Source of the DNA: a virus
DNA length: 37,843 nt
IMG/VR virus record: IMGVR_UViG_3300048928_000659
Location: 1 to 37,843 of that record
Strand: one strand, 5' to 3'
Below, one piece after another: positions 752 through 37,150 of the stretch (the first letter of the stretch is position 1; each line of letters begins with the position of its first letter). Under the pieces are notes generated by a model that saw only the letters and a list, made by a program, of their open reading frames with translations, made no database searches and was not told the DNA's origin. The position numbers were made by a program, and so were the translations under genes.

Positions 752-812
752 GTCGATGTCTCCCTTTCGTGTTGCAGGGAGATCGTGGGGGCGGCCACCG
801 CAAGCAACAAAC
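749..812 (-). promoter_or_regulatory. Leader A: ribosome-site hairpin plus CTTGC element
   Basis: On the gene strand the order is GGTTTGTTGCTTGCGG (complement of about 799-812), then TCTCCCT, a 10-nt loop, AGGGAGA and CATCGACATG. The 7-bp hairpin (759-765 with 776-782) buries the Shine-Dalgarno sequence of the 186-aa gene. The same arrangement recurs upstream of five other genes. Confidence 0.6.
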
Positions 813-881
813 CGTCGGCGAGTTGCGTCAGGCCAGCGCCGGTCACACCATCGTAGTCAGACCAACATTTAGGAGCTGACT

Positions 882-1157
882 ATGGCACTACCTTTCGCCC
901 GCCGCCGCCCATTCGCCGATTTCGAAATCCCACGCACGCCGACTGTGCCGCGGCCGCGCCCTGAGGCGGGCGTGAAGAGCCGAATCGTGGTCCTGAAACG
1001 CCGCGAGGACGGCACGGTATTCGAGGGAGCCGCGCGACCGGCATTCCTCTTTCGAGACCAGACGTCACTTACCGAAAAATACAAGCTGCCGACGGACTAT
1101 TTCTGGCGCGGATCGCCCGAGCATCTGGCTCGTCGTCTGGAACTGGGCCTCGACTAA
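882..1157 (+). CDS. Hypothetical protein (91 aa)
   Basis: Small basic, proline- and arginine-rich protein (begins MALPFARRRP) with no family I recognise. The start is supported by AGGAG six bases upstream. It is one of the few plus-strand genes outside the replication module. It is divergent from the 186-aa gene across about 130 bp that must hold promoters for both, and it ends just before the GC-rich terminator at 1171-1199. Confidence 0.6.
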   Translation: MALPFARRRPFADFEIPRTPTVPRPRPEAGVKSRIVVLKRREDGTVFEGAARPAFLFRDQTSLTEKYKLPTDYFWRGSPEHLARRLELGLD

Positions 1158-1170
1158 TCCAAGAAACAGA

Positions 1171-1199
1171 AAACCCCGGGGAAAGGAAACCCCGGGGTT
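1171..1199. terminator. Bidirectional terminator between convergent genes
   Basis: Inverted repeat AACCCCGGGG / CCCCGGGGTT with a short A-rich loop and A/T flanks on both sides. It ends the plus gene 882-1157, and in the other direction the late lysis transcript after the outer spanin gene. Confidence 0.85.
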
Positions 1200-1307
1200 C
1201 AACCAACATGTTTCAGCGATCGAGGCATTTGTCGGGAAACATCGTGCGGTAGATCGCCTACCTCGATAGTGAGTCCAGCACGCGCCCGGTACAAGTCCGC
1301 CGGCGGA
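1200..1307 (-). ncRNA. Possible pseudoknotted RNA or structured 3' UTR
   Basis: About 110 bases without a gene, between the outer spanin stop and the terminator. Two perfect 7-bp complementarities interleave: 1208-1214 (ATGTTTC) with 1236-1242 (GAAACAT), and 1219-1225 (ATCGAGG) with 1261-1267 (CCTCGAT). That order is an H-type pseudoknot. The palindrome TCCGCCGGCGGA (1296-1307), which precedes several genes elsewhere, stands at its minus-strand 5' side. It could be a small RNA with its own promoter or the structured 3' end of the late mRNA. Confidence 0.3.
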
Positions 1308-3877: not shown

Positions 3878-5503
3878 TCAACCGAGTGCACAGTACCTTC
3901 CGTCGTCTGACTGGATCAGCATAGCCCTGGTGCCATTGCAGTAACCGATGGAATGTCCAAAGGCCCAAGCCGTGGGTCCTTTGTTGTATCCCTGTTTCTT
4001 CCGTGCTGAGAGACCGCCCGTGTGAACATCCTCGTGGATGCTTGGGGCATGAGTGTGTTCAGTGGTCATCTTCCTGCCCATACGCGTAAATTGCCTGGGC
4101 GTTCCGCGCGCACCGCCGATTCCGATGTCGCCGTGGTGACCATAGTCGACGCCGTAGACGAGGTATGTGCCGCCGGAAGCGACAAATGGAACATCGTCGC
4201 GTAGTCCCGCCTTCCTCATGGCAAACTCGACAAGGTTGAAGTCTCGGTCTTTCTTGCGAATGGCATTGTGCCAAGCGGCGTTCATCTCATGCCAATAATA
4301 GGCATTCGCGGGATCGGTCTGCCCTTCCTTATTCTTGGTCCACCTGCAGATCGCGGCGTCGTGGTTTGATTCGACCACAACTGAAATGCACCAATCCCGA
4401 TGCATTTCGTTGATGAAGTGCGCGGCGTCCCGAACTTCGTCTTCGACGTTGTCCTTTCCGGAAACGTAGACTTCGGCCATTAGGTGCGGATCGTTGATGC
4501 TGTGATGGTTCCGACGCCGAAAATCGAGCGTGTCATGGTAGAAGCAAACCTCCGGCCGCAGTCGCTCGTAGATGCTGTCTGTGGTTACGACCTTCTTCCG
4601 GTCAACGCAGAAGCCGAAAGCGGTCCTGGCGACTACGGGATCGAGCTGTTCGTAGTGGATGTCGCCCCACGCTATCGCGCCGACGCGGCAGCCGTCATAG
4701 ACGATGCCGTCCTTCACGAAATGCGTTAGGTCCTGGAAAGAGCCGTCATCAGCGTTTGCGACCAGGTGACGGAAAAAGACCTCGCCGTCGACGTCGATTT
4801 CGACCAGTAGCGCGGCATATGTGTGTCGAGCGATGCTCTTGCGACCCGACGCACGAGGAGCATAGGAGGGGATTGTGCAGCACCCCGTCGACACCGCGAA
4901 TCGGGCTGGTTCATCTTGAGGTCTGGGGATCGACTGAAGAGCGACTCTTGCATGCGGGACGATGACGTGTTGTCCGCCATACGTCGTCATCCAGCCATTG
5001 AGTGGGTTTGCCGACGTGGGCAAGACGTTCGCATCGCCGATGAACATTATCCTGTCGTTTAGTACGACGCGTAATGGGCAGAGATATTCTCGAAGGGCGG
5101 GGTCGTATACCGCGGTCTGGGCGGCGTGATCCTCGAACAGCCCCTTTTGATACGTGAATGGTCCGACAAAAAATTGGGCTTTTATGGCGTCGCAGTATGC
5201 GAGCAGGTTGTCCACGAAAGGCTTGAAGATCAGGGTGTCGTCCTGTGCCGCACTGACGATGAAGCGATGTACTTTGCCGGGTACGAGATCGGCATCGATG
5301 ATATCAATGCTGGAAATCCGGGGCGGCTTGGGTTTCTCAGGCTTAGGAGGTTCCGCCGGCTGATTTCTGAGATACTCCAGAGCATACCTGGCTTGTTTCT
5401 CAGAACATCCAAGCCGTTCGGCAACTGCTCGACGACCGAGGTCTTGAATTTTCAGGCCCGTAATTTTCGATGCGCGGTCTGCGACCGTAGTGTTTTTATG
5501 CAT
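3878..5503 (-). CDS. T5 A1-like protein (HTH plus metallophosphoesterase-like core, 541 aa)
   Basis: The N-terminus (about 8-48) has a helix-turn-helix look and is followed by a Pro/Lys linker. The core carries the spaced metal-ligand motifs of calcineurin-like phosphoesterases as seen in phage T5 A1 relatives: WGDIHYEQLD (279-288), HDTLDF (323-328), ESNHD (378-382), and a late EHTHAP (482-487). In T5, A1 is a pre-early protein needed for host DNA degradation and completion of DNA entry. Start at 5503: the longer frame lacks a ribosome site, while GGGAGACATCGAAT precedes this ATG. The leader can hide that site in a GTCTCC/GGAGAC hairpin, as expected for a toxic product. The biochemical role is inferred. 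Confidence 0.7.
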   Translation of the reverse strand: MHKNTTVADRASKITGLKIQDLGRRAVAERLGCSEKQARYALEYLRNQPAEPPKPEKPKPPRISSIDIIDADLVPGKVHRFIVSAAQDDTLIFKPFVDNLLAYCDAIKAQFFVGPFTYQKGLFEDHAAQTAVYDPALREYLCPLRVVLNDRIMFIGDANVLPTSANPLNGWMTTYGGQHVIVPHARVALQSIPRPQDEPARFAVSTGCCTIPSYAPRASGRKSIARHTYAALLVEIDVDGEVFFRHLVANADDGSFQDLTHFVKDGIVYDGCRVGAIAWGDIHYEQLDPVVARTAFGFCVDRKKVVTTDSIYERLRPEVCFYHDTLDFRRRNHHSINDPHLMAEVYVSGKDNVEDEVRDAAHFINEMHRDWCISVVVESNHDAAICRWTKNKEGQTDPANAYYWHEMNAAWHNAIRKKDRDFNLVEFAMRKAGLRDDVPFVASGGTYLVYGVDYGHHGDIGIGGARGTPRQFTRMGRKMTTEHTHAPSIHEDVHTGGLSARKKQGYNKGPTAWAFGHSIGYCNGTRAMLIQSDDGRYCALG

Positions 5504-5570
5504 ATTCGATGTCTCCCGTGACATGGAGACCGTGGGTCGGCGATTTCGCCGATGCAAATTCCGCCGGCGA
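5504..5570 (-). promoter_or_regulatory. Leader B of the A1-like gene
   Basis: Gene-strand order: CGCCGGCGGA, TTTGCATCGG, a TCGGCGAAATCGCCGA hairpin, then GTCTCC-8nt-GGAGAC (5511-5516 with 5525-5530), which sequesters the ribosome site, then the ATG. It combines the palindrome element and the GCAT element found separately in other leaders. Confidence 0.6.
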
Positions 5571-5578
5571 GTTTGGCA

Positions 5579-22331: not shown

Positions 22332-22595
22332 TCAGGATGCCGCGGTATCCTGCACGGCGCAAGCACCGGCGGCACGGGCTCTTCCAGCCACCTGGCCACC
22401 TCGGAGTGTCTGTTCAGGCCTGACCTTGTAGCTGTAGATCGCGCCTGACGACGGGCCACCAAAGACACCAGTGGTGAACTTACCTTGCAGGAGGCGCTCA
22501 CCGAACGCATGTGGCTCGGCGGCGAGGTCTTCGACAGTGTCGGCGCTCACAGTCGTGACGAGGACGTGGGCGCGTTCGGGTGCTTGCTCGCTCAT
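22332..22595 (-). CDS. Hypothetical protein (87 aa)
   Basis: Not recognised. ATGA overlap with the preceding 211-aa gene shows coupling. Thr/Val/Ala-rich with a Gly/Arg C-terminus, no membrane segment. The two genes form a small unit upstream of the tRNA-like sequence and the terminase. Confidence 0.6.
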   Translation of the reverse strand: MSEQAPERAHVLVTTVSADTVEDLAAEPHAFGERLLQGKFTTGVFGGPSSGAIYSYKVRPEQTLRGGQVAGRARAAGACAVQDTAAS

Positions 22596-23227
22596 GCATC
22601 ACCCCCATTCGGATGACACAGGTCGACGGGCTCCTGCCACCATCCCAAAGCCGCCTCGATCTCGGTGTCTATATCCTCGACGTCCATGCCGAACTCGGCG
22701 GCGACACGGGCGCGGTTCGGGCTGCCGTTGCCGAGAAGGGTGAAAGCGGCTTCGGCTTCAAGCACAGGTGATATTGTGAGAGCGCGCGTCTCCGCCTGAA
22801 TGTAACTCGACAACGCCTGTAGCGATTGCCTCGCTGATTCCGACAGTGCGGGGGACTGGGTGCCGTAGGTGACCATGCCCTCCGTGATTGCCCATGCGGC
22901 CATGTTCAGCATGGTCTGGTGGAAGAATTCGTAATTATGAGGGTAGCGTGACGTCAGAGGCTCGATCGGCTCGATCTCGGGGAAGCTGTAACGCCGCGTT
23001 AGGTTCCACTCGCGATCGCCGAGCTTACACCAGGGTTCACCACGGCTGCCGTCCTCATTAGGATATCCCAGCGGCTCCTTGATGCACTCAACCTCGATCA
23101 TGTCGCCGACATCACCGATATCGATAATCTTCTGACGGTCATCTCCGCCACGAGTGACGATGTCGCCAATCTCGAACTTGGTTCCCGTCATCCAGCAGAC
23201 CGCCTGCTTCTTCTCATTCTTCGACAT
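22592..23227 (-). CDS. Hypothetical protein (211 aa)
   Basis: Not recognised as a family. The N-terminal part has a KOW/SH3-like small beta pattern (FEIGDIVTRGGDDRQKIIDIGDVGDMIEVEC), the C-terminal half is helical. Start at 23227 (MSKNEKK) follows AGGGAGAG. Its leader has the GCCGGCGGA element, like other cargo genes. Confidence 0.65.
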   Translation of the reverse strand: MSKNEKKQAVCWMTGTKFEIGDIVTRGGDDRQKIIDIGDVGDMIEVECIKEPLGYPNEDGSRGEPWCKLGDREWNLTRRYSFPEIEPIEPLTSRYPHNYEFFHQTMLNMAAWAITEGMVTYGTQSPALSESARQSLQALSSYIQAETRALTISPVLEAEAAFTLLGNGSPNRARVAAEFGMDVEDIDTEIEAALGWWQEPVDLCHPNGGDA

Positions 23228-23300
23228 CAAACTCTCCCTGTTGTTGGTGTCTGACATCAATGGTGTGTCCACCGGCCGATCGGCACAAATCCGCCGGCGA
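23228..23300 (-). promoter_or_regulatory. Leader H of the 211-aa gene
   Basis: CGCCGGCGGA (23291-23300), TTTGTGCCGATCGG, an imperfect TTGATGT/ACACCAA hairpin and AGGGAGAG before the ATG. Here the hairpin does not cover the ribosome site. Opposite-strand promoter for 23365 must also lie here. Confidence 0.4.
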
Positions 23301-23364
23301 AAAAGTAGGAGCCGACCCCGTGACCTCGTGCTATGAGCCACGCGCGAGTTAATCGGGGGATGCA

Positions 23365-27155: not shown

Positions 27156-27338
27156 TCAGCAGCACATCCGGCAGAGGATGGCTTCTATGTCGTCGATCTC
27201 ATCTCGAAGGAACCGCCGCTCTTTCGCCGAGTCCTCATAGTGTAGCTTGGACCTCAGTTCCTTGACCTCCGCCTCGAGTCGATCCGCAAGGCGGGCATCA
27301 TCGAAACGGAAGCCCTCAATCGATATCGTCGCCGGCAT
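27156..27338 (-). CDS. Small coiled-coil protein (60 aa)
   Basis: Mostly one helix rich in Glu, Arg and Leu (LADRLEAEVKELRSKL...), ending CRMCC. GGAG nine bases upstream; the start lies inside the end of the 99-aa gene (23-base overlap), so expression is coupled. Function unknown. Confidence 0.6.
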   Translation of the reverse strand: MPATISIEGFRFDDARLADRLEAEVKELRSKLHYEDSAKERRFLRDEIDDIEAILCRMCC

Positions 27339-27615
27339 ACATAATATCTCCGAATTCGTTCACACCGTAAGGCTGAACGCAATCACGGGCGGCGACAAGC
27401 TGACGTCGGTGATTTTGGGCGATGGCTGTTTTGATCCGGCGTTGGACGAGGCGTTCTTCGAACTGAATGACGTTCGATGGTTCGGTGTCCACCACTGTTG
27501 CCAGGAGCGATTTCAAGCCCCGTAGGTAAGTGAGTGCTTCCTGGCGGTCGGCTTCGTCGGCGACATGCGGAAGGTGTGCCTCAAGTGCGTCGTGAATGGT
27601 GCAGAACAGTTTCAT
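27316..27615 (-). CDS. Hypothetical protein (99 aa)
   Basis: Helical, His/Arg-rich, no recognisable domain. Start at 27615 after AGGGAGAGACACG. Leader G upstream holds TCCGCCGGCGGA and an AGCCG/CGGCT hairpin. Confidence 0.65.
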   Translation of the reverse strand: MKLFCTIHDALEAHLPHVADEADRQEALTYLRGLKSLLATVVDTEPSNVIQFEERLVQRRIKTAIAQNHRRQLVAARDCVQPYGVNEFGDIMYAGDDID

Positions 27616-27674
27616 CGTGTCTCTCCCTGGAGCCGCAACACGGTCGGCTACAGAGATGATGTGTCCGCCGGCGG
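27616..27674 (-). promoter_or_regulatory. Leader G of the 99-aa gene
   Basis: TCCGCCGGCGGA (27663-27674) followed by ACATCATCTCTGT, an AGCCG/CGGCT hairpin flanked by CTCT and AGAG, the latter in the ribosome site GGGAGAG. Partial occlusion of the ribosome site is possible. Confidence 0.4.
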
Positions 27675-27686
27675 AAAGGTGCCAGC

Positions 27687-28568
27687 TCAGCCGCGGCGTC
27701 GCATGGGCGGCAAATCACGAAGAATCACGAGCGCTTCCTCGCCGTAATCTTCGTCTCCCGACGATCGAGGACGATCCCGCCAGTCCCGCCATCCGAATGC
27801 ATCGATCGCAGGCGCGACCAGGTCCTTTATTGCGTCGGTCGGCTCCGCGTTCGTCGGTCCTCGGAACTGCCGCAGAAAACCGTCGCGGATTTCGAGCGTC
27901 GCCTTGGGCTTTCCGTCGCGATCACGAACGGAAAAGAACCCAACGTCGGGATCGTCGAGCAACTCGTCATATGCCCCCTGGCCGACGCAATGATGCATCC
28001 GCAAGCCCTCCTTTCGGAGCGCAGCGCGTGAGAAAAGGCGAACGAGCGTATGTCCGGCACCAAGTTCGAAGGCGAAGCTTTCGTCTTCGGGTCCGAGAAC
28101 GATGTCCCGGATGTCCCGCTGCCTCAGCCCCTTAGTGGCTTCGAAGGCCAAGCGTTCAAGGGTGCCACACTTCATGAGTTTTTTGGGATGGCCGTCGAGT
28201 CCAACATTGGCGATCCACGGATGACCGTCGGAAACCGCCGTCAACAACCAGTCGCAGACGTGCCAGGCGTCGATGGAATGCCATTGCATCCATAGAGCAG
28301 CGCGGCGGCTCCACTTTCGGGACACATGACCGTCGCCGAACTCCGGCCATCCGTCGATGCGATGCCATTCAGGGTCTTCGTGATCGCCAGGCGTAGGCAT
28401 CCATTCCGGGTCCTTGGAATCTTGTCGGAGCCAATCGTTCCAAAAAACTCGAACCAAGGAGCAACCGACCAGATTGCGGATCGGAAGGAAGACCCGATCG
28501 GGAATGTCCAGTTCACCCACGAGGTGAAGGGCGGCTTCGCCATATTCTGGGTGATTGTATCTGCTCAT
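27687..28568 (-). CDS. PcfJ-like domain protein (293 aa)
   Basis: Residues 188-242 match the core of PcfJ-type proteins of plasmids and phages: LRMHHCVGQGAY, then FFSVRDRDGKPKATLEI and QFRGPTN. The Trp-rich N-terminal half is unassigned. The biochemical role of the family is unclear to me. Start at 28568 follows GGGAGACATCAAC in leader C, which can hide the ribosome site. Terminators and a leader isolate it as a single-gene unit. Confidence 0.65.
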   Translation of the reverse strand: MSRYNHPEYGEAALHLVGELDIPDRVFLPIRNLVGCSLVRVFWNDWLRQDSKDPEWMPTPGDHEDPEWHRIDGWPEFGDGHVSRKWSRRAALWMQWHSIDAWHVCDWLLTAVSDGHPWIANVGLDGHPKKLMKCGTLERLAFEATKGLRQRDIRDIVLGPEDESFAFELGAGHTLVRLFSRAALRKEGLRMHHCVGQGAYDELLDDPDVGFFSVRDRDGKPKATLEIRDGFLRQFRGPTNAEPTDAIKDLVAPAIDAFGWRDWRDRPRSSGDEDYGEEALVILRDLPPMRRRG

Positions 28569-28621
28569 GTTGATGTCTCCCTGTTCGGGAGAGCATGAGC
28601 CGTAGGCATGCAAGCAACAAA
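28569..28621 (-). promoter_or_regulatory. Leader C: CTTGCAT element and ribosome-site hairpin
   Basis: TTTGTTGCTTGCAT (complement of 28608-28621) directly after a terminator, then TCTCCC-GAACA-GGGAGA (28576-28592), a 6-bp hairpin with a 5-nt loop that covers the ribosome site of the PcfJ-like gene. Confidence 0.65.
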
Positions 28622-28646
28622 AAGGCGGCTCGGTGGCCGCCTTTTT
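28619..28646. terminator. Intrinsic terminator after the 142-aa gene
   Basis: AAAAAGGCGGC / GCCGCCTTTTT perfect stem with a short loop and T-runs both ways. Its last T-run merges into the CTTGCAT element of leader C. Confidence 0.9.
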
Positions 28647-28664
28647 GGGTCTGATTTCCGTGTC

Positions 28665-29093
28665 TCAGGCCGCCAGTTGGCTGCTCTCGGCACGAGCACG
28701 GAGAAGTGTCTGAAGTTCCAAGGTTTCTTTCTCAATGTCGTCGTCGCCGTAAGCCAAGGCCGCGGCGATATACTTCTCCAGCGCGGCGATCACGTCCCCG
28801 CCGTCTTCCCTGGTTTCTTCGAGATCGTTGTACGTGTCGATGTAGTTCTGAAGCAGCACATGGCGGTCGCCGTGCATCTTCATGAGCGTGCGCACCAATG
28901 TCACGTGGACTGCACTCGAAAAATCGTACCCTTTGCCAATCGACCAGATCATGACGATAGAGTCGAATACACGCTCGCACTGAGCTGCGGTGAGGTCGTT
29001 CGGCACGCAGGTGTTGTTGAGAATTTCGGTGGCCACTTCTTCGAAGATGAAGTCCGGATGTGTGAAGATATGTTGTGCTACTGCAAGTTCCAT
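28665..29093 (-). CDS. Hypothetical protein (142 aa)
   Basis: All-helical soluble protein, acidic, not recognised. Start at 29093; its GGGAGACATCTAA ribosome site is inside the longest leader hairpin of the set (10 bp). Single-gene unit ended by the terminator at 28619-28646. Confidence 0.65.
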   Translation of the reverse strand: MELAVAQHIFTHPDFIFEEVATEILNNTCVPNDLTAAQCERVFDSIVMIWSIGKGYDFSSAVHVTLVRTLMKMHGDRHVLLQNYIDTYNDLEETREDGGDVIAALEKYIAAALAYGDDDIEKETLELQTLLRARAESSQLAA

Positions 29094-29156
29094 TTAGATG
29101 TCTCCCTAGAGCTGTTTTCCTTTTGCTCTAGGGATATGCTGTGACCGCCGGCGGAA
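29094..29156 (-). promoter_or_regulatory. Leader D: 10-bp hairpin covering the ribosome site
   Basis: CCGCCGGCGG element (29145-29155), CACAGCAT, then TCCCTAGAGC / GCTCTAGGGA (29103-29112 with 29125-29134) around an A-rich 12-nt loop. The GGGA of the Shine-Dalgarno is in the stem. The stem sequence is unlike leaders A-C and E, so the structure rather than the sequence is kept. Confidence 0.7.
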
Positions 29157-29181
29157 TGACGCAACGGCGTTTCGCAAAAAA

Positions 29182-29523
29182 TCAGTCGTCGGGGCCAATA
29201 ATTCTGAACGGCCATTCGACGGAGACGCGCCCGGACATTGTTGTGACGGTCGGAAACAGCGGCGTCTCGACTGCCGAGAATGCCAAGACTTCTTCCAGCG
29301 TCAGACCTTTGCCCAGCTGCTCTGCGACGAAGGCCTCGATGGCGGCGTGCCGCTCCCTTAGAAGGCGCTCGACACGAAACCTAACGTCAGCATCCTCCCG
29401 GTTCTTCGGTGAGCGGACGGACAGAAGACCGTCCAGGTCGCGGATGTAGTCGACGTCGGAAACCGTTGTCTTGATTTCCTGCTCTACCGTTTTCGCAGGG
29501 GTGTTCCTCGGGGCCTTTGCCAT
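29182..29523 (-). CDS. Hypothetical protein (113 aa)
   Basis: Charged helical protein (MAKAPRNTPAK...), C-terminal VSVEWPFRI strand. Not recognised and not an AbiEi-type antitoxin as far as I can see. GGAG lies before the ATG, eight bases after the AbiEii-like stop, so the two form an operon. Confidence 0.6.
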   Translation of the reverse strand: MAKAPRNTPAKTVEQEIKTTVSDVDYIRDLDGLLSVRSPKNREDADVRFRVERLLRERHAAIEAFVAEQLGKGLTLEEVLAFSAVETPLFPTVTTMSGRVSVEWPFRIIGPDD

Positions 29524-29531
29524 GCTCGCTC

Positions 29532-30488
29532 CTAGAAAGGTCTGTATGCGGTCTCTTGCCGCTGCCTGGCGGCGATCCTGTCTACGAGAGTAGTCTCGCG
29601 CGTCGGCCGGCGGAAATCTTCGATGACGGCCCGGGTGAGAGCCTGGTGCGTTGCAGACCAATAGGCGTTGATGTCGATCCATGCCTGCGGCAGCGTCATC
29701 GCGAAACCGCGCTCGGCGCGCAATTTTTCCCAGGACGGCTCCCGGGGTTCCATCTTCGACCACGACAGCGCCGCCGGCGACGGCGCACAGACGCCGAGCG
29801 GGATGTTTCGGTGGCGGCATACACGCATGATCTCAAGAGCGACGCGGGCTATATCGATCTCCATGGCGTCGAAGCTGAGAAGGTCCGCAAGGTGTTTGAC
29901 GCGGTAATCCGTATCGGGTTGCTGAAGGACGGCGACCCACTTTTCGGCGGCGGCCGCTTCGATCGGCTGCACGTGGGCGACGATGCCGGGTTGTTTGCTG
30001 ATCATAGACGGCAGTTCCTGGCGTGTGACGTTCTGTGGGAACGCGAACGGTCCCCGGCCGACAGTCATGTCGATGTGAGTGTTGCCTCGGATCGTGCCGC
30101 ACATCGCCTCGATCTTGATGCGGACGACGGGATCGCCGTGACCGACATCGATTTCCTCGATCTTCAGGCGCTTGATCTCGATGCCTTCGTTGCCGAGGAT
30201 GGCGGCAATGCACTGCATACCTTGCCGAAGCTCCGCCTCAGTGTAGTGTCGGACGGCGACGATGTCGGCGTCCTCAGTCGGACGCATGCCCTGCGGGAAA
30301 AGCAAACCGCCTTTGACCATGATCGGCCCTGGGCCGAAGCCGACCGGCCAATGCGCTAGGATGCGCTCGGCAACGTAGCGCGACGCCGCCTTGTTTACGT
30401 CCAGTTTCTGGTTGCGGCAGTTCTGTTTGAGTCGGTCGCCGAGCGCGGCCGCTGTGGCTGTGGCTGTGAATGTCACGAAGTCTTGCAT
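29532..30488 (-). CDS. AbiEii-like nucleotidyltransferase (318 aa)
   Basis: Matches the AbiEii/type IV toxin nucleotidyltransferase layout: MVKGG (57-61), RPTEDAD (69-75; two metal-binding Asp), THIDMTVG, the AEKWVAVLQQ helix and YRVKHLADL near the usual R-x-KD-x-x-D site (His instead of Asp). AbiEii toxins block growth of infected cells, usually with AbiEi upstream; none is visible here. Start at 30488 follows GGGAGACATCGAC, sequestered by GTCTCC. It may be a defence toxin held in check at translation, or a domesticated enzyme. Confidence 0.7.
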   Translation of the reverse strand: MQDFVTFTATATAAALGDRLKQNCRNQKLDVNKAASRYVAERILAHWPVGFGPGPIMVKGGLLFPQGMRPTEDADIVAVRHYTEAELRQGMQCIAAILGNEGIEIKRLKIEEIDVGHGDPVVRIKIEAMCGTIRGNTHIDMTVGRGPFAFPQNVTRQELPSMISKQPGIVAHVQPIEAAAAEKWVAVLQQPDTDYRVKHLADLLSFDAMEIDIARVALEIMRVCRHRNIPLGVCAPSPAALSWSKMEPREPSWEKLRAERGFAMTLPQAWIDINAYWSATHQALTRAVIEDFRRPTRETTLVDRIAARQRQETAYRPF

Positions 30489-30541
30489 GTCGATGTCTCC
30501 CAGTGCGGAGACGGTCGCCTTCGGCGATGCAAGTGACAAAA
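30489..30541 (-). promoter_or_regulatory. Leader E: CTTGCAT element and ribosome-site hairpin
   Basis: TTTGTCACTTGCAT (complement of 30527-30540), then GTCTCC-GCACTG-GGAGAC (30495-30500 with 30507-30512) before CATCGACATG. A TCGCC/GGCGA hairpin lies between. Same plan as leader C. Confidence 0.65.
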
Positions 30542-32172: not shown

Positions 32173-32487
32173 TCATCGCGGAGTCTGGGAATAGCGACGT
32201 CGCTTGATCAGGCGAGCGGACAACGCGGACCATGACTGCTGACGGTCGAGACCTCGAACATCGACCAAGTGATCGAGTGCACCATCGAAAATGGCGTTCA
32301 GGATATCGGATGTCTTCGACGGCTTGTCTCCGGCGAGCTTGATCCTGCGGAGTTCGGCTTTCACGGCGGCTGAAAGAGCCTCATCGACTGCCACCGGCTG
32401 TGGCTTACCGACGGCCGCGCGCCGCGTCCGCGTCCGCTGTGCCGAAGACCTCTGGCGCTCTGTCGTCTTGAAATAATCCCTTGTCAT
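32173..32487 (-). CDS. Small basic protein of the replication region (104 aa)
   Basis: Arg/Lys-rich N-terminus then a helical part (VDEALSAAVKAELRRIKL...). Could be DNA-binding, perhaps in partition or copy control; I do not recognise the family. Leader F uses GGGAGACATGCGAC. Confidence 0.55.
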   Translation of the reverse strand: MTRDYFKTTERQRSSAQRTRTRRAAVGKPQPVAVDEALSAAVKAELRRIKLAGDKPSKTSDILNAIFDGALDHLVDVRGLDRQQSWSALSARLIKRRRYSQTPR

Positions 32488-32551
32488 GTCGCATGTCTCC
32501 CGAAACGGCGTTTCCGCACCGATGAAACGGCGTTTCGATGCAAGCGACAAA
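32488..32551 (-). promoter_or_regulatory. Leader F: tandem GAAACGGCGTTTC and CTTGCAT element
   Basis: TTTGTCGCTTGCAT (complement of 32538-32551) and two copies of GAAACGGCGTTTC (32502-32514, 32524-32536). On RNA they form one long stem (7 bp, mismatch, 6 bp) ending directly before GGGAGAC; on DNA they could be paired operators. Confidence 0.6.
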
Positions 32552-32598: not shown

Positions 32599-33030
32599 TC
32601 AACGCGAGTTGCGTGCGACGTGCATGAGCTTCGGCTTGAGCTTTCCGGACCGCGCCCAAGTTTTGATCGTGAGGGGAGCGCCGACCTGGTCGTGGAACAC
32701 CTTCGACAGATAAGCGTCGATAGCGTCGGCACCAGGGCCGCCGGTCGCGAGGATCAACAACGCGGCGTCGGCCAGCGCTTCACGTGTCGAGTTCGCGTCG
32801 AACTTAATGCTCCCCGAAGACTCGCGTGCCTTTAGCTGCGCACGGCGTTCCGCCTGCTTCCGAGCCTTGTATTCGCGGTGTTCGGCGTCGGTCATGTCGG
32901 CAAGTCTAACTGAACTGCGCTTCACTGAGGATTTGATTGGGAGGGCAGGCTCGTCGCCCAGCAGCTCTTTCAGCAGACCCAGCTCGTCGTCGACGTGCGT
33001 TGCCAGTTCCTCGATCTCGGTGTTCGTCAT
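32599..33030 (-). CDS. Hypothetical protein of the replication region (143 aa)
   Basis: Acidic N-terminus, basic centre (KARKQAERRAQLKAR), and a C-terminal helix-rich part (DAYLSKVFHDQV...). Start at 33030; a TTCTACATGTAGAA palindrome lies 12 bases upstream, so it may bind it and repress itself. A partition or copy-control role is a guess from position. Confidence 0.55.
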   Translation of the reverse strand: MTNTEIEELATHVDDELGLLKELLGDEPALPIKSSVKRSSVRLADMTDAEHREYKARKQAERRAQLKARESSGSIKFDANSTREALADAALLILATGGPGADAIDAYLSKVFHDQVGAPLTIKTWARSGKLKPKLMHVARNSR

Positions 33031-33041
33031 TTCACATTCCG

Positions 33042-33152
33042 TTCTACATGTAGAAACATGTGTCCGCTTTCTACATAGAAGTCTGCCTGTCGGCCAAACC
33101 AAGCACCACTCATTTCTACATGTAGAACATGATTATTTTTCTACATGTAGAA
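33042..33152. promoter_or_regulatory. Cluster of TTCTACATGTAGAA palindromes
   Basis: Three perfect 14-bp palindromes (33042-33055, 33114-33127, 33139-33152) and one shorter variant (TTCTACATAGAA, 33069-33080). Spacing 25 between the last two. Likely operators or partition sites between the divergent 143-aa and rep genes. Confidence 0.75.
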
Positions 33153-33647
33153 CGCGATCTAAAAAGGGGCTGGCGCACTAGAAGGCTCCGCCGCTCCGCC
33201 CGAAATGGACAACCGGCTCCAGGGAAAATAGGAATCTTGAAACCCTTTGATTGGACAACCGAACCCCACAAAACGAGACTGCTATCCAAACTGCTCCGCG
33301 CATCTGATGACACGGACGCCTCCCGCTTGCGCCAAGCTTCGCCGACGGGCAGACTTACAAAAGACGAGCGAAGCGACCCGTTTCTTAAAACGGCGAAGCC
33401 CATAGAAACCCGATGATTAAAATCATGAACCCGGTTTCAATATTCGCTATCGACGGCTTCCAGTAAACATACATCAGCGCCCAAGGAATGCAGGGTACAG
33501 TTGACTGACAATATACCACCCATCTCACTTGCCGAAGAATCGTGACAGGGCCGATAAAATCATAGCAATAGTAAAAAATCGACGTTGATAGTCTTGTGCC
33601 AGGCTCCGCCGACACGCACACTTATGACTGTAAGGGAGACATACGTC
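33153..33647 (+). other. Gene-poor, AT-richer region upstream of rep: candidate origin
   Basis: About 500 bases with no convincing gene. Contains a CCGTTT/AAACGG hairpin, a nested GAAACC/GGTTTC plus ATGATT/AATCAT hairpin (33405-33438), TTGACT near 33499 and AT-rich runs (33540-33580). Two related 28-base repeats (33331, 33598). Expected place for a replication origin and rep control. Confidence 0.45.
33331..33625 (+). repeat. Two related 28-base direct repeats flanking the rep promoter region
   Basis: 33331-33358 and 33598-33625 match at 22 of 28 positions (GCCArGCTyCGCCGAC...). They could be iteron-like Rep sites or remnants of a duplication. Confidence 0.4.
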
Positions 33648-35093
33648 GTGCATCAGCCAGCTAATACATCGCTCGAAGAAATGGAAATCGCATCGAAGCG
33701 CAAGCCTCGTCGACACAAGATGCACGGCAAGCGGGGATCGGTGTTCGTCCACGAGCGTGAAGATGGTTCCGAGAAAGGTTACGTTTGGAAGACTACGGGT
33801 GACGATATCATCCGGGGATATCAGCGCGGCGGTCTCAAGTGCGGCAATCTCTCGGCGGAAGCGGTCTATACGAACGAATCCTCGTCGCCGCGGGTCGAAA
33901 TTCCCCGTGTCGTCATCGAAACAATGTCTGTTGAATCAAAGCAGTTGCATGCGGGAGACATCGCGGTGTTCTGGCGGATGTTCGCCGAAGCCCGCAAGCA
34001 AGGCATCTCACGCGACGCGCATACGATCAAGTTGAGCGACGTCATCAGATACCTGGGACTCAACAGCCTTCATCGTGCGAAGCAAGCTATCACGCGCCTA
34101 GCTGGCGCGGCGATGACGCTTCGGCTCAACCAGCCAGGCGCGCGTGGCACGATCCGAATGCCAATGATTGAACTCCTGCACGACACCGACGACTTCGCGG
34201 CACTCCGCGGCTACAACGAAGTGTTTTTCCGTCTGCCTTCGGCCCTCAAGCTGGCCGTAAAGGAGAGCCGAGACTACGCCTGGGTGGACCTCAACGCGCT
34301 GTCCCGGTTCGAATCCAAGTTCACGTTCCCTCTCTATCTCAAGCTCTGCCTGGAAGCGGGCAAACATCGCTTGTATCGCTCCGTGCCGGAGATGACGAAG
34401 TCTGAATTCCGGGCTTTCGTCGGAATGCCCGAGAAGACCCAGACGTCGGTGCTCGACAAGACACTGCAACTCGTCTGCAACGATCTGTCTTCGATCTCCG
34501 GCGTCCGCCGCCGTTTCCCGATTTCCATCGCGTTCGAGGAAGGGAAGCTCCAGATCGTCGTTGGAAGCGCCGCGAAGAAGCTCCGTGATGTGAAGCCCGC
34601 GTGGATCGCGCCGGAGATGGCTGCAAAGCAGACCGAAGAGGTCTACGCGATGCCTGCGGAAAAGCGAAAGCTCTACCCGTCATTGACGCGGTTCCGACAG
34701 GCGGAGACTGCCATCGGAGCGCCTGCGTATCGGATTTTTGGTCTGTGGTCAGCCGACATTCACGGCGCGACGTCTTACCCCGACGACTATATCGTCGGTA
34801 TGACCGGCCGCGACTTCATGAACCTGATCGCGAAGGTCGGTGCGGACGATGTCATGGAGTTCTGGCTCGACAAGCGAGACTTCGAAGTCCTTGGAGCTGC
34901 TGGAAAATGGATGGATGTCGAGGTCGTAGAGCACACCCCGGTCGTGAATATCCCGATCGCCGCATCCAGGCCAAAGGCACCCAAGGTCGCCCTCGACGAG
35001 ATAGTGAGTCGGGCAAGAGCGCGCTACGATGATGAGCGTCTGCCCGAACCCGCTGTATTTGCCTACGTGGACGACGAGGACATTCCGTTCTGA
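33648..35093 (+). CDS. Plasmid-type replication initiator (winged-helix Rep, 481 aa)
   Basis: The central part (about 100-290) has the double winged-helix pattern of theta-plasmid Rep proteins: DIAVFWRMFAEARKQ...IKLSDVIRYLGL, FPLYLKLCLEAGKH and EFRAFVGMPE. Basic N-terminus. Start taken as GTG at 33648: GGGAGACATACGTC precedes it with the spacing used by the phage leaders, while upstream ATGs lack a site. Role: origin opening and plasmid-state maintenance. Exact Rep family not certain. Confidence 0.75.
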   Translation: MHQPANTSLEEMEIASKRKPRRHKMHGKRGSVFVHEREDGSEKGYVWKTTGDDIIRGYQRGGLKCGNLSAEAVYTNESSSPRVEIPRVVIETMSVESKQLHAGDIAVFWRMFAEARKQGISRDAHTIKLSDVIRYLGLNSLHRAKQAITRLAGAAMTLRLNQPGARGTIRMPMIELLHDTDDFAALRGYNEVFFRLPSALKLAVKESRDYAWVDLNALSRFESKFTFPLYLKLCLEAGKHRLYRSVPEMTKSEFRAFVGMPEKTQTSVLDKTLQLVCNDLSSISGVRRRFPISIAFEEGKLQIVVGSAAKKLRDVKPAWIAPEMAAKQTEEVYAMPAEKRKLYPSLTRFRQAETAIGAPAYRIFGLWSADIHGATSYPDDYIVGMTGRDFMNLIAKVGADDVMEFWLDKRDFEVLGAAGKWMDVEVVEHTPVVNIPIAASRPKAPKVALDEIVSRARARYDDERLPEPAVFAYVDDEDIPF

Positions 35094-35293: not shown

Positions 35294-37150
35294 ATGGCCA
35301 CCGAGCAGCTGTCACTCGAGCGTCGCATCGCCGACCTTCATCTTGCCCGTTATCTTCGCCCATTCGCGCGTGCCAAGGCATGCTTCTTGGTTGTGGCGCT
35401 ACCATCTGACGTCGACAGCCTCGCCTGGAAGGACGCTGCTGTTCGGTGGTCAGGCCGTGGAGAAGAGGACGAGTGGCGCTACAAGGACCCCGCGGTGGTC
35501 GCCACTGTCGATCAGCTCGACGACCTCAAGCTGGCGCGCGGCCGCATCGTTATCCTCGTTGAACATGGCGACCGTGATGAACTCCTGGCGCATCCGACGG
35601 CATCCGCTGCGGACGCGGTGATCGGAATCGACTCCCTCGATCCTGTCCTCGTGCAGAAGGCTTTCCGCGACACGACCGGTGGCGACATTTCGCTTCCGGA
35701 TGCGACCACCCTCGCGGCCTTACCTGCCCCCCGTCGCCGTTCGCTCTCATTCGCCGGCCGTCCGATTTCGGCGGTTGTCGCTCGCCTTGCAGCTGCGCAG
35801 GCGAAAGAAGACCTCAATTCGACGGCGAAGCTTTCAAAGAAGACGTCGGCGACGCGCCTCGAAGAACTCCACGGCTATGGGGATGCCAAGTCTTGGGGAC
35901 TGGAACTTGCGCAGGACATCGCTGACTATCGCGCTGGTTTGATCGACTGGTCGGACGTAGACGGCGGCCTGCTGCTCTCTGGTCCTCCTGGTGTCGGAAA
36001 GACCCGCTTCGCCGCCGCGCTGGCCGAGACCTGCGGTGTACCTCTCATGTCAACCTCATATGCAAAATGGCAGGCGCGTGGTCATCAGGGCGACGCGCTC
36101 AAAGGCATGCAGATCACGTTCGACGCCGCACGTCGCGCAGCGCCTTGCATCGTGTTCCTGGACGAAGTCGACTCGTTCTCGTCTCGCGACGACGACAAGG
36201 CGACAGAATACATGCGCGGCATCGTCAATGGCCTGCTTGAAGCTATGGACGGCTCAGAGGGGTGCGAAGGCATCGTCGTCATCGGCGCATGCAACGACCC
36301 TGAAGTCGTTGACCACGCGATCCGCCGTTCGGGCCGCCTTGATCGCCACATTGCCCTAAAACTCCCTGACGCTGGCGCTCGCCTGGCTATCCTGCGTGAG
36401 TACCTCGGCGTCGATCTCGACCTCTCCACGTATCTCCGTCGCACTGAAGGCATGTCGGGTGCTGACCTGGAACGCGCAGCGCGCGACGCCCGTCGTCTGG
36501 CGCGCCGCCATCGCACTGAAATCTCGCATGACCACATCATCGCGGCGCTTCCCAAACGTGCTTCGCGTCCGGCCGAATACCTCCGCATGGTCGCGCGCCA
36601 TGAGATCGGGCATGCCGTTGTCGGTGCTGTGCTCGGCGGACGCCTGCTGCATGTCTATTTGCAGAAGGAGTACGATCCCGATTCTACGGCCGATGTAGCC
36701 GGTGCGGCTGTGTTCCGTATCGAAAAACACGAGCATCGCACTGCGTCAAAATACAGCGATTTGATCTGTACCAAGCTCGCAGGCATGGCGGCTGAGCTGA
36801 TCTACTATGGCAACCATGGCGACGTCTGTGTTGCCGATCTTGTTGAAGCGTCGGCGACCGCGACGTGCATGCTGTCCAGCCTTGGTATGGGCGACAACCT
36901 GTCATCAACCGGCCATCGCGAACCTGAGACGCTGGCTCAGGAGCGCCTAATGAACCCGGCACTCGCCCGCGACGTCGAAACGCTGCTGCAGGAGCAGGCT
37001 GCGCGCGCTCGCGAAATCCTCGAAATGCACCGCGACGCCGTAGACGAACTCGTCGAGCTTTTGATCCTGCGCGGTCGCTTGATGGGGCCGGAAGTTCGCG
37101 ACACGATCCGTTCTTACGAGGCAGGCCCGAGCCTGCCGAAGGCGGTGTGA
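35294..37150 (+). CDS. Soluble FtsH-like AAA+/M41 protease (618 aa)
   Basis: Walker A GPPGVGKT (about 230-237), Walker B IVFLDEVDSF, sensor/arginine-finger region RRSGRLDRH, then the M41 zinc motif HEIGH (436-440) with the later GMAAELIYYG...ADLVEAS region supplying the third ligand. Unlike cellular FtsH, the 190-residue N-terminus has no membrane helix. AGGAG lies eight bases before the ATG. Unfolds and degrades proteins using ATP and zinc; targets unknown. First gene of an operon with a phosphoesterase (2-base gap). Confidence 0.85.
   Translation: MATEQLSLERRIADLHLARYLRPFARAKACFLVVALPSDVDSLAWKDAAVRWSGRGEEDEWRYKDPAVVATVDQLDDLKLARGRIVILVEHGDRDELLAHPTASAADAVIGIDSLDPVLVQKAFRDTTGGDISLPDATTLAALPAPRRRSLSFAGRPISAVVARLAAAQAKEDLNSTAKLSKKTSATRLEELHGYGDAKSWGLELAQDIADYRAGLIDWSDVDGGLLLSGPPGVGKTRFAAALAETCGVPLMSTSYAKWQARGHQGDALKGMQITFDAARRAAPCIVFLDEVDSFSSRDDDKATEYMRGIVNGLLEAMDGSEGCEGIVVIGACNDPEVVDHAIRRSGRLDRHIALKLPDAGARLAILREYLGVDLDLSTYLRRTEGMSGADLERAARDARRLARRHRTEISHDHIIAALPKRASRPAEYLRMVARHEIGHAVVGAVLGGRLLHVYLQKEYDPDSTADVAGAAVFRIEKHEHRTASKYSDLICTKLAGMAAELIYYGNHGDVCVADLVEASATATCMLSSLGMGDNLSSTGHREPETLAQERLMNPALARDVETLLQEQAARAREILEMHRDAVDELVELLILRGRLMGPEVRDTIRSYEAGPSLPKAV

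Follow-up and report, generated by a model that had tools for sequence, protein, structure and literature searches.

Six genes in a 37,843-nt stretch of viral DNA (the window) share the ribosome site GGGAGACAT, and five of them are preceded by sequences able to pair with it. The initial annotation read this as a post-transcriptional regulon in which the site is hidden in a hairpin until a factor or a ribosome state opens it. Is such a hairpin present in the messages made from these genes, and what would control it? The window, a fragment of a virus record, encodes a terminase, a portal protein, a tape measure protein and T5 A1-like, PcfJ-like and AbiEii-like proteins. Its cultured kin are distant. 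The best matches of the A1 protein, Caulobacter phages among them, are about 40% identical, and those of the terminase about 30%. Nearer relatives were found in IMG/VR. Some proteins of G002 (IMGVR 3300028447_000028) are 98-100% identical to those of the window. G001 (2643221558_000003) and G003 (2775507240_000001) are also near, and G004-G008 come next. The group is siphophage-like, and integrase-like genes in G002 and G003 suggest that it is probably temperate.

All six copies of GGGAGACAT are exact, lie on the minus strand and end 3-5 nt ahead of their start codons (Table 1). The five arm pairs described before were all recovered. In the sixth leader a GAAAC-GCC-GUUUC stem stands immediately beside the ribosome site, as had been said. 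The protein assignments are also correct (T5 A1-like, phrog_1745, E=8e-150; PcfJ, E=1e-7; AbiEii, E=2e-13). The description as scattered cargo genes had to be abandoned: these are mostly the first genes of transcription units, at positions conserved in related phages. A seventh leader, on the plus strand, had been overlooked. It carries the predicted promoter described below together with GGGAGACAT, and its layout is shared with the homologous gene in G002 (15808, minus strand) and G003 (34591, plus strand). The motif is orthologous in G002. Orthologous leaders of gene 191-751 are present in G002, G001, G003 and G008, and the A1-like leader was aligned with those of the A1 orthologs in G001-G008. 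The AbiEii-like gene retains GGGAGACAT and the promoter in G002, G001 and G003. The hairpin of the 32173-32487 leader is kept at the same place in G002 and G004.

Table 1. Positions in the window of the shared sites, their predicted promoter elements and the predicted small RNA
Feature	Position	Strand	Elements
GGGAGACAT site, gene 191-751	756..764	-	arm TCTCCCT 776-782; predicted -35 810-805; predicted -10 CACGAT 787-782
GGGAGACAT site, A1-like gene 3878-5503	5509..5517	-	arm GTCTCC 5530-5525; TTGCAT 5557; predicted -10 CACGGT 5534-5529
GGGAGACAT site, PcfJ-like gene 27687-28568	28573..28581	-	arm TCTCCC 28592-28587; TTGTTG 28620; predicted -10 CATGCT 28597-28592
GGGAGACAT site, gene 28665-29093	29098..29106	-	arms TCCCTAGAGC 29134-29125 / GCTCTAGGGA 29112-29103; TTGCGT 29164; predicted -10 CAGCAT 29141-29136
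GGGAGACAT site, AbiEii-like gene 29532-30488	30493..30501	-	arm GTCTCC 30512-30507; TTGTCA 30539; predicted -10 GACCGT 30516-30511
GGGAGACAT site, gene 32173-32487	32493..32501	-	hairpin GAAAC-GCC-GTTTC 32514-32502 at predicted +1; TTGTCG 32550; predicted -10 TTTCAT 32527-32522
Seventh leader	33594..33650	+	promoter and site 33594-33642; TTGTGC-17-CACACT; GGGAGACAT 33634-33642; start GTG 33648
Weaker leader, gene 27316-27615	27615..27690	-	CATCAT, GGGAGAGACACG
Internal negative control, gene 22592-23227	23222..23294	-	TTGTGC 23288, CACCAT; GGGAGAGTTTG; no arm
Small-RNA promoter (predicted)	1266..1294	-	TTGTAC-17-CACTAT, CCGCCGGCGGAC just before
Predicted small RNA, ~90 nt	1161..1259	-	5' hairpin, linker, intrinsic terminator 1200-1171
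Antisense segment CGATGTTTCCC (predicted)	1234..1244	-	pairs with GGGAGACATCG: 11 pairs, one G-U

Alignment of the six leaders revealed a second shared element, TTGnnn separated by exactly 17 nt from [C/A]AnnnT. At this spacing NANNNT occurs in five of the six leaders; the other spacings between 12 and 22 gave none, save two register artefacts at 14. The element resembles a sigma-70-type promoter whose -10 box has an unusual first base, and a generic TTGACA/TATAAT scan recovered none of these promoters. A weight matrix trained on eight window sites located sites before gene starts in the related records, far above controls run on reversed sequences. In the consensus of 46 sites, information peaks at TTG and at -10 positions A2 and T6, and a CGGCGG box often precedes. 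When the cassette pattern was searched across the whole collection, two matches in bacterial genomes (Opitutia and Prevotellaceae) were taken as chance. The palindrome CCGCCGGCGG recurs at or in the promoters (window 1296-1307, 5560-5571, 23290-23301, 27664-27675 and 29144-29155), usually just 5' of the -35 element, and is a possible activator site.

The leaders of the gene that precedes the terminase operon serve as a control (window 23288, minus; G002 26782, plus; G001 27670, minus; G003 24798, minus; G006 21571, minus). They share the promoter type but have GGGAGAG or GGGAGTG in place of GGGAGACAT, and those that were tested have no arm. Arm and motif therefore mark the gene set and not the promoter itself.

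Pairing between arm and site was measured over 41 non-redundant leaders. The mean complementarity is -9.5 kcal/mol, compared with -7.2 ± 0.33 when sites are permuted between leaders (0/20,000 permutations reach the real value) and -5.4 when arms are shuffled. Arms and sites covary in this set of some 40 leaders, which come from ten related phages. The signal is restricted to a segment that begins with the final three bases of the -10 element and reaches nine bases past it. Compensatory arm/site sets include TCCCCTCAG/CTGAGGGGA in G005, GCTCTCCCAAA/TTTGGGAGAGC in G009, CTTCCTCA/TGAGGAGG in G004 and ATCATCTC/GAGATGAT in G001, as well as GTCTCC/GGAGAC. The earlier statement that stems differ while pairing is kept holds in these relatives only; the 3' arm does not vary within the window, which by itself shows no compensatory change. 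Judging from its confinement and covariation, the pairing is under selection and most likely works as RNA.

Two other explanations bear on these repeats. The sites could be ordinary strong Shine-Dalgarno (SD) sequences, favoured at operon heads and complementary to the arms by chance. GGAG-type sites are indeed common, and GGAGAC is also used by internal genes. This reading is very unlikely in view of the permutation test and of the genome-wide test given below, of the control leaders, which have the promoter with neither motif nor arm, and of the ACAT bases, conserved in the window and G002 beyond any 16S pairing. The repeats could also be DNA operators bound by a dimeric repressor at the promoter, because they overlap the -10/+1 region. 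We regard this as highly improbable: the loops between the arms vary from 3 to 27 nt and keep no constant phase, the half-sites differ within one phage, and the ribosome site is always one of them. Constant half-sites at constant spacing were not found, and the repressor operator was rejected as a candidate. A different sequence does resemble an operator cluster. The palindrome TTCTACATGTAGAA occurs in three exact copies (0.02 expected) at 33042-33152, between the divergent genes 32599-33102 (minus) and 33648-35093 (plus), and these look like binding sites of a phage repressor.

The position of the arm would matter for the fate of the message. In most leaders the arm begins between -5 and +3 nt relative to the end of the predicted -10 element. 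Because the arm is located at the -10/+1 junction, RNA made from the gene's own promoter should be devoid of it, and therefore only read-through RNA could hide the site. The predicted openness of the SD is 0.27 in read-through RNA, 0.39 when the arm is shuffled and 0.57 in RNA beginning at the predicted +7 start (P=2e-6). These predictions do not support a hairpin within promoter-initiated messages. The model of the initial annotation, with a hairpin in normal messages that a factor or state opens to switch translation on, fits the real and covarying arms and the predicted closure of sites when the RNA includes the arm. We consider it unlikely, since in most leaders the arm overlaps the predicted -10 element and ends near +1. 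At 28581, moreover, a terminator-like stem (28618-28647) directly 5' of the leader of the PcfJ-like gene leaves scant room for another start. With the arm predicted to lie outside promoter-started messages, no factor would be needed to open the hairpin. Nor is the cis layer found throughout: some gene leaders have no arm (the 23288 group, 33594 and 32550). In G009 (L093-L095), the leaders at 36304 and 4189, both on the minus strand, have arm-site hairpins of 11 and 10 bp.

A comparable arrangement is known in phage T4, and reviews of that phage set out just this layout. In genes e, soc, 49 and I-TevI a late promoter lies within the arm of a hairpin that hides the SD; for gene e and I-TevI, the site is hidden in the long early transcripts and exposed in those that begin at the promoter within the arm (PMC3014915, PMC2988022). 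In our leaders an upstream arm complementary to the SD is present, and the position of the predicted promoter would exclude the 5' arm. As in T4, read-through RNA would hide the site and RNA from the nearby promoter is predicted to be free of the 5' arm. In T4 the promoters are the phage's own late promoters, served by a sigma factor of its own, and the stems at a few genes are unrelated, whereas the present non-T4 temperate group repeats one promoter/site cassette at the heads of many transcription units. Another parallel is the SAS of Cluster K mycobacteriophages, a repeated SD-containing start motif with conserved bases unable to pair with 16S rRNA; upstream inverted repeats are frequent, and an unknown RNA or protein partner was suggested (PMC3203893). 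The SAS has a different sequence and host group, and its inverted repeat lies beside it, whereas in our leaders the site itself forms one arm. The motif found here, GGGAGACAT(C), does not match the SAS consensus GGGATAGGAGCCC.

One predicted promoter of the same class, at 1294-1266 on the minus strand, has no gene behind it. It is followed by about 90 nt, at the end of which stand a GC-rich hairpin and a T-rich tail. This unit occupies the same locus in eight phages, between the A1/lysis genes and the homologue of gene 191-751, and in all eight a free-standing small-RNA gene with promoter and terminator is recognisable at the sequence level. A 9-codon ORF inside it (M F P D K C L D R) was set aside for want of an SD. 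The top of the 5' hairpin is a C-rich segment, CGAUGUUUCCC in the window, complementary to GGGAGACAUCG. This match would account for the conservation of ACAT(C), which lies outside the SD core that can pair with 16S rRNA. In the relatives the loop changes together with the leaders: GUCUCCCCAG occurs with CUGGGGAGAC, GUCCCUUCAG with CUGAGGGGAC and UUUCCUCAGGC with GCCUGAGGAGG. Compensatory changes are GTCTCCCCAG/CTGGGGAGAC in G001 and G003, GTCCCTTCAG/CTGAGGGGAC in G005 and G007, and TTTCCTCAGGC/GCCTGAGGAGG in G004. A divergent small ORF (882-1157) with a promoter-like site at 823 (region 823-1157, plus strand) faces the small RNA and shares its terminator region.

The specificity of this loop was evaluated in several ways. 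Among 42 window starts, the six GGGAGACAT genes take the top six ranks for pairing with the loop. In a genome-wide scan for leader pairing, for which the loop was not chosen beforehand, the small RNA falls within the top 0.01-0.2% of windows in eight of eight genomes. When loop classes were swapped, the true assignment ranked 2nd of 120, and only the exchange of two near-identical loops scored better; this test comprises five distinct loop classes and a modest number of independent lineages. Cofolding with the unfolding cost included gives a higher gain at targets than at other starts, with less sharp separation (P=6e-4), and some non-target starts also score well (best -12.3). Any C-rich loop pairs to some degree with any SD. 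The stability of the 5' hairpin is significant only in some phages and not unusual in the window, G005 and G007 (z -0.3, 0.0 and +1.35). The MAFFT alignment of the small RNAs misplaced the 3' side of the stem in three sequences, and stem covariation is to be read as qualitative only. The retrained matrix found leaders in G009, G011 and L051, and no convincing small-RNA gene in these records.

The loop resembles the arm, i.e. an anti-SD, and not the SD; it should therefore close the site, not open it. This also speaks against the hairpin-opening model, for an arm-like RNA would not open a site. A small RNA is credible as the controller, as had been suggested, since one with a matching loop is predicted in the phage, of the sort that would close the site. 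Of the regulon first proposed, the selected pairing and the single gene set are supported and the small RNA is supported in part; the hairpin that needs opening is not supported. It may be asked whether the small RNA alone matters, the arms being a by-product of an anti-SD-like discriminator sequence, since the complementarity of loop and site reaches past the SD (ACATCG) and tracks the individual phage. This is quite unlikely, as the arms match the site of their own leader better than those of others, including the 10-11 bp cases of G009, where no RNA was found.

Phages are known to make RNAs that are antisense to phage mRNAs or ribosome sites: c4 of P1/P7, sar of P22 and OOP of lambda (PMC12197685). 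As in c4, the complementary stretches lie in loops. Each of these RNAs acts on one phage gene, as described in PMC12197685, whereas the single loop predicted here fits no fewer than seven leaders. In the alpha-r14/cuckoo RNAs of Rhizobiales, such as NfeR1, anti-SD motifs in hairpin loops act on many mRNAs (PMC7143759). Our small RNA shares with them a loop complementary to several sites, which here changes together with the sites in relatives. The alpha-r14/cuckoo RNAs are host genes with three anti-SD hairpins; unlike them, the predicted RNA is phage-borne, with a single anti-SD hairpin and a terminator, and its loop is fitted to the extended site of that same phage. A search of Rfam gave no match to the small RNA at E<=1 (window, G002, G001 and G003), and it was assigned to neither the alpha-r14/cuckoo nor the c4 family.

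We propose, with a probability of roughly 0.6, a temperate-phage regulon in which a cis lock acts on read-through and a trans-acting antisense RNA masks ribosome sites. The cassette would combine a sigma-70-like promoter (CGGCGG box, TTGnnn, 17 nt, [C/A]AnnnT) and a start at the heads of transcription units, with a very short 5' leader and, inside a longer conserved motif, a strong SD. In the cis layer, the -10/+1 DNA would also encode the arm able to pair with the site. Transcripts arriving from upstream would hold the arm and have their site hidden, and an own-promoter message would be free of the arm. In the trans layer, the ~90-nt RNA, made from the same promoter class, would mask through its antisense loop the sites of at least seven window genes. 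Promoter-started messages would be held down in this way until, speculatively, message exceeds RNA during induction. We infer promoter activity, start sites, small-RNA production and repression by pairing from sequence. More tentatively, at slightly less than even confidence, these phages may possess an undescribed antisense-RNA family that controls their own operon-leading genes via the shared extended site, which is also locked in cis in read-through messages. The site, its arm in cis and the loop in trans would then evolve together into a translation "password" private to each lineage.

If this is true, a temperate phage silences a gene set at translation too, by locking a single sequence in two independent ways. 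The hairpin device of T4 would thereby be extended to the scale of a regulon in phages unrelated to T4, and a multi-target phage antisense RNA would be added. The scheme also offers a concrete model for repeated start-site motifs whose partner is unknown, such as the mycobacteriophage SAS. The three co-varying sequences yield predictions that simple reporters can test.

Other regions of the related records were observed. In G003, L034:6009-13263 encodes HATPase, Z1-domain and AIPR abortive-infection-type genes, with an integrase in the same record, and is likely a defence cassette of the phage or of its host flank. In G002, L023:12057-14224 encodes a NotI-like restriction endonuclease and a DNA methyltransferase. 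L021:3665-5578 of the same relative encodes an RTX-repeat protein with a metallopeptidase-like region, either unusual phage cargo or host flank.
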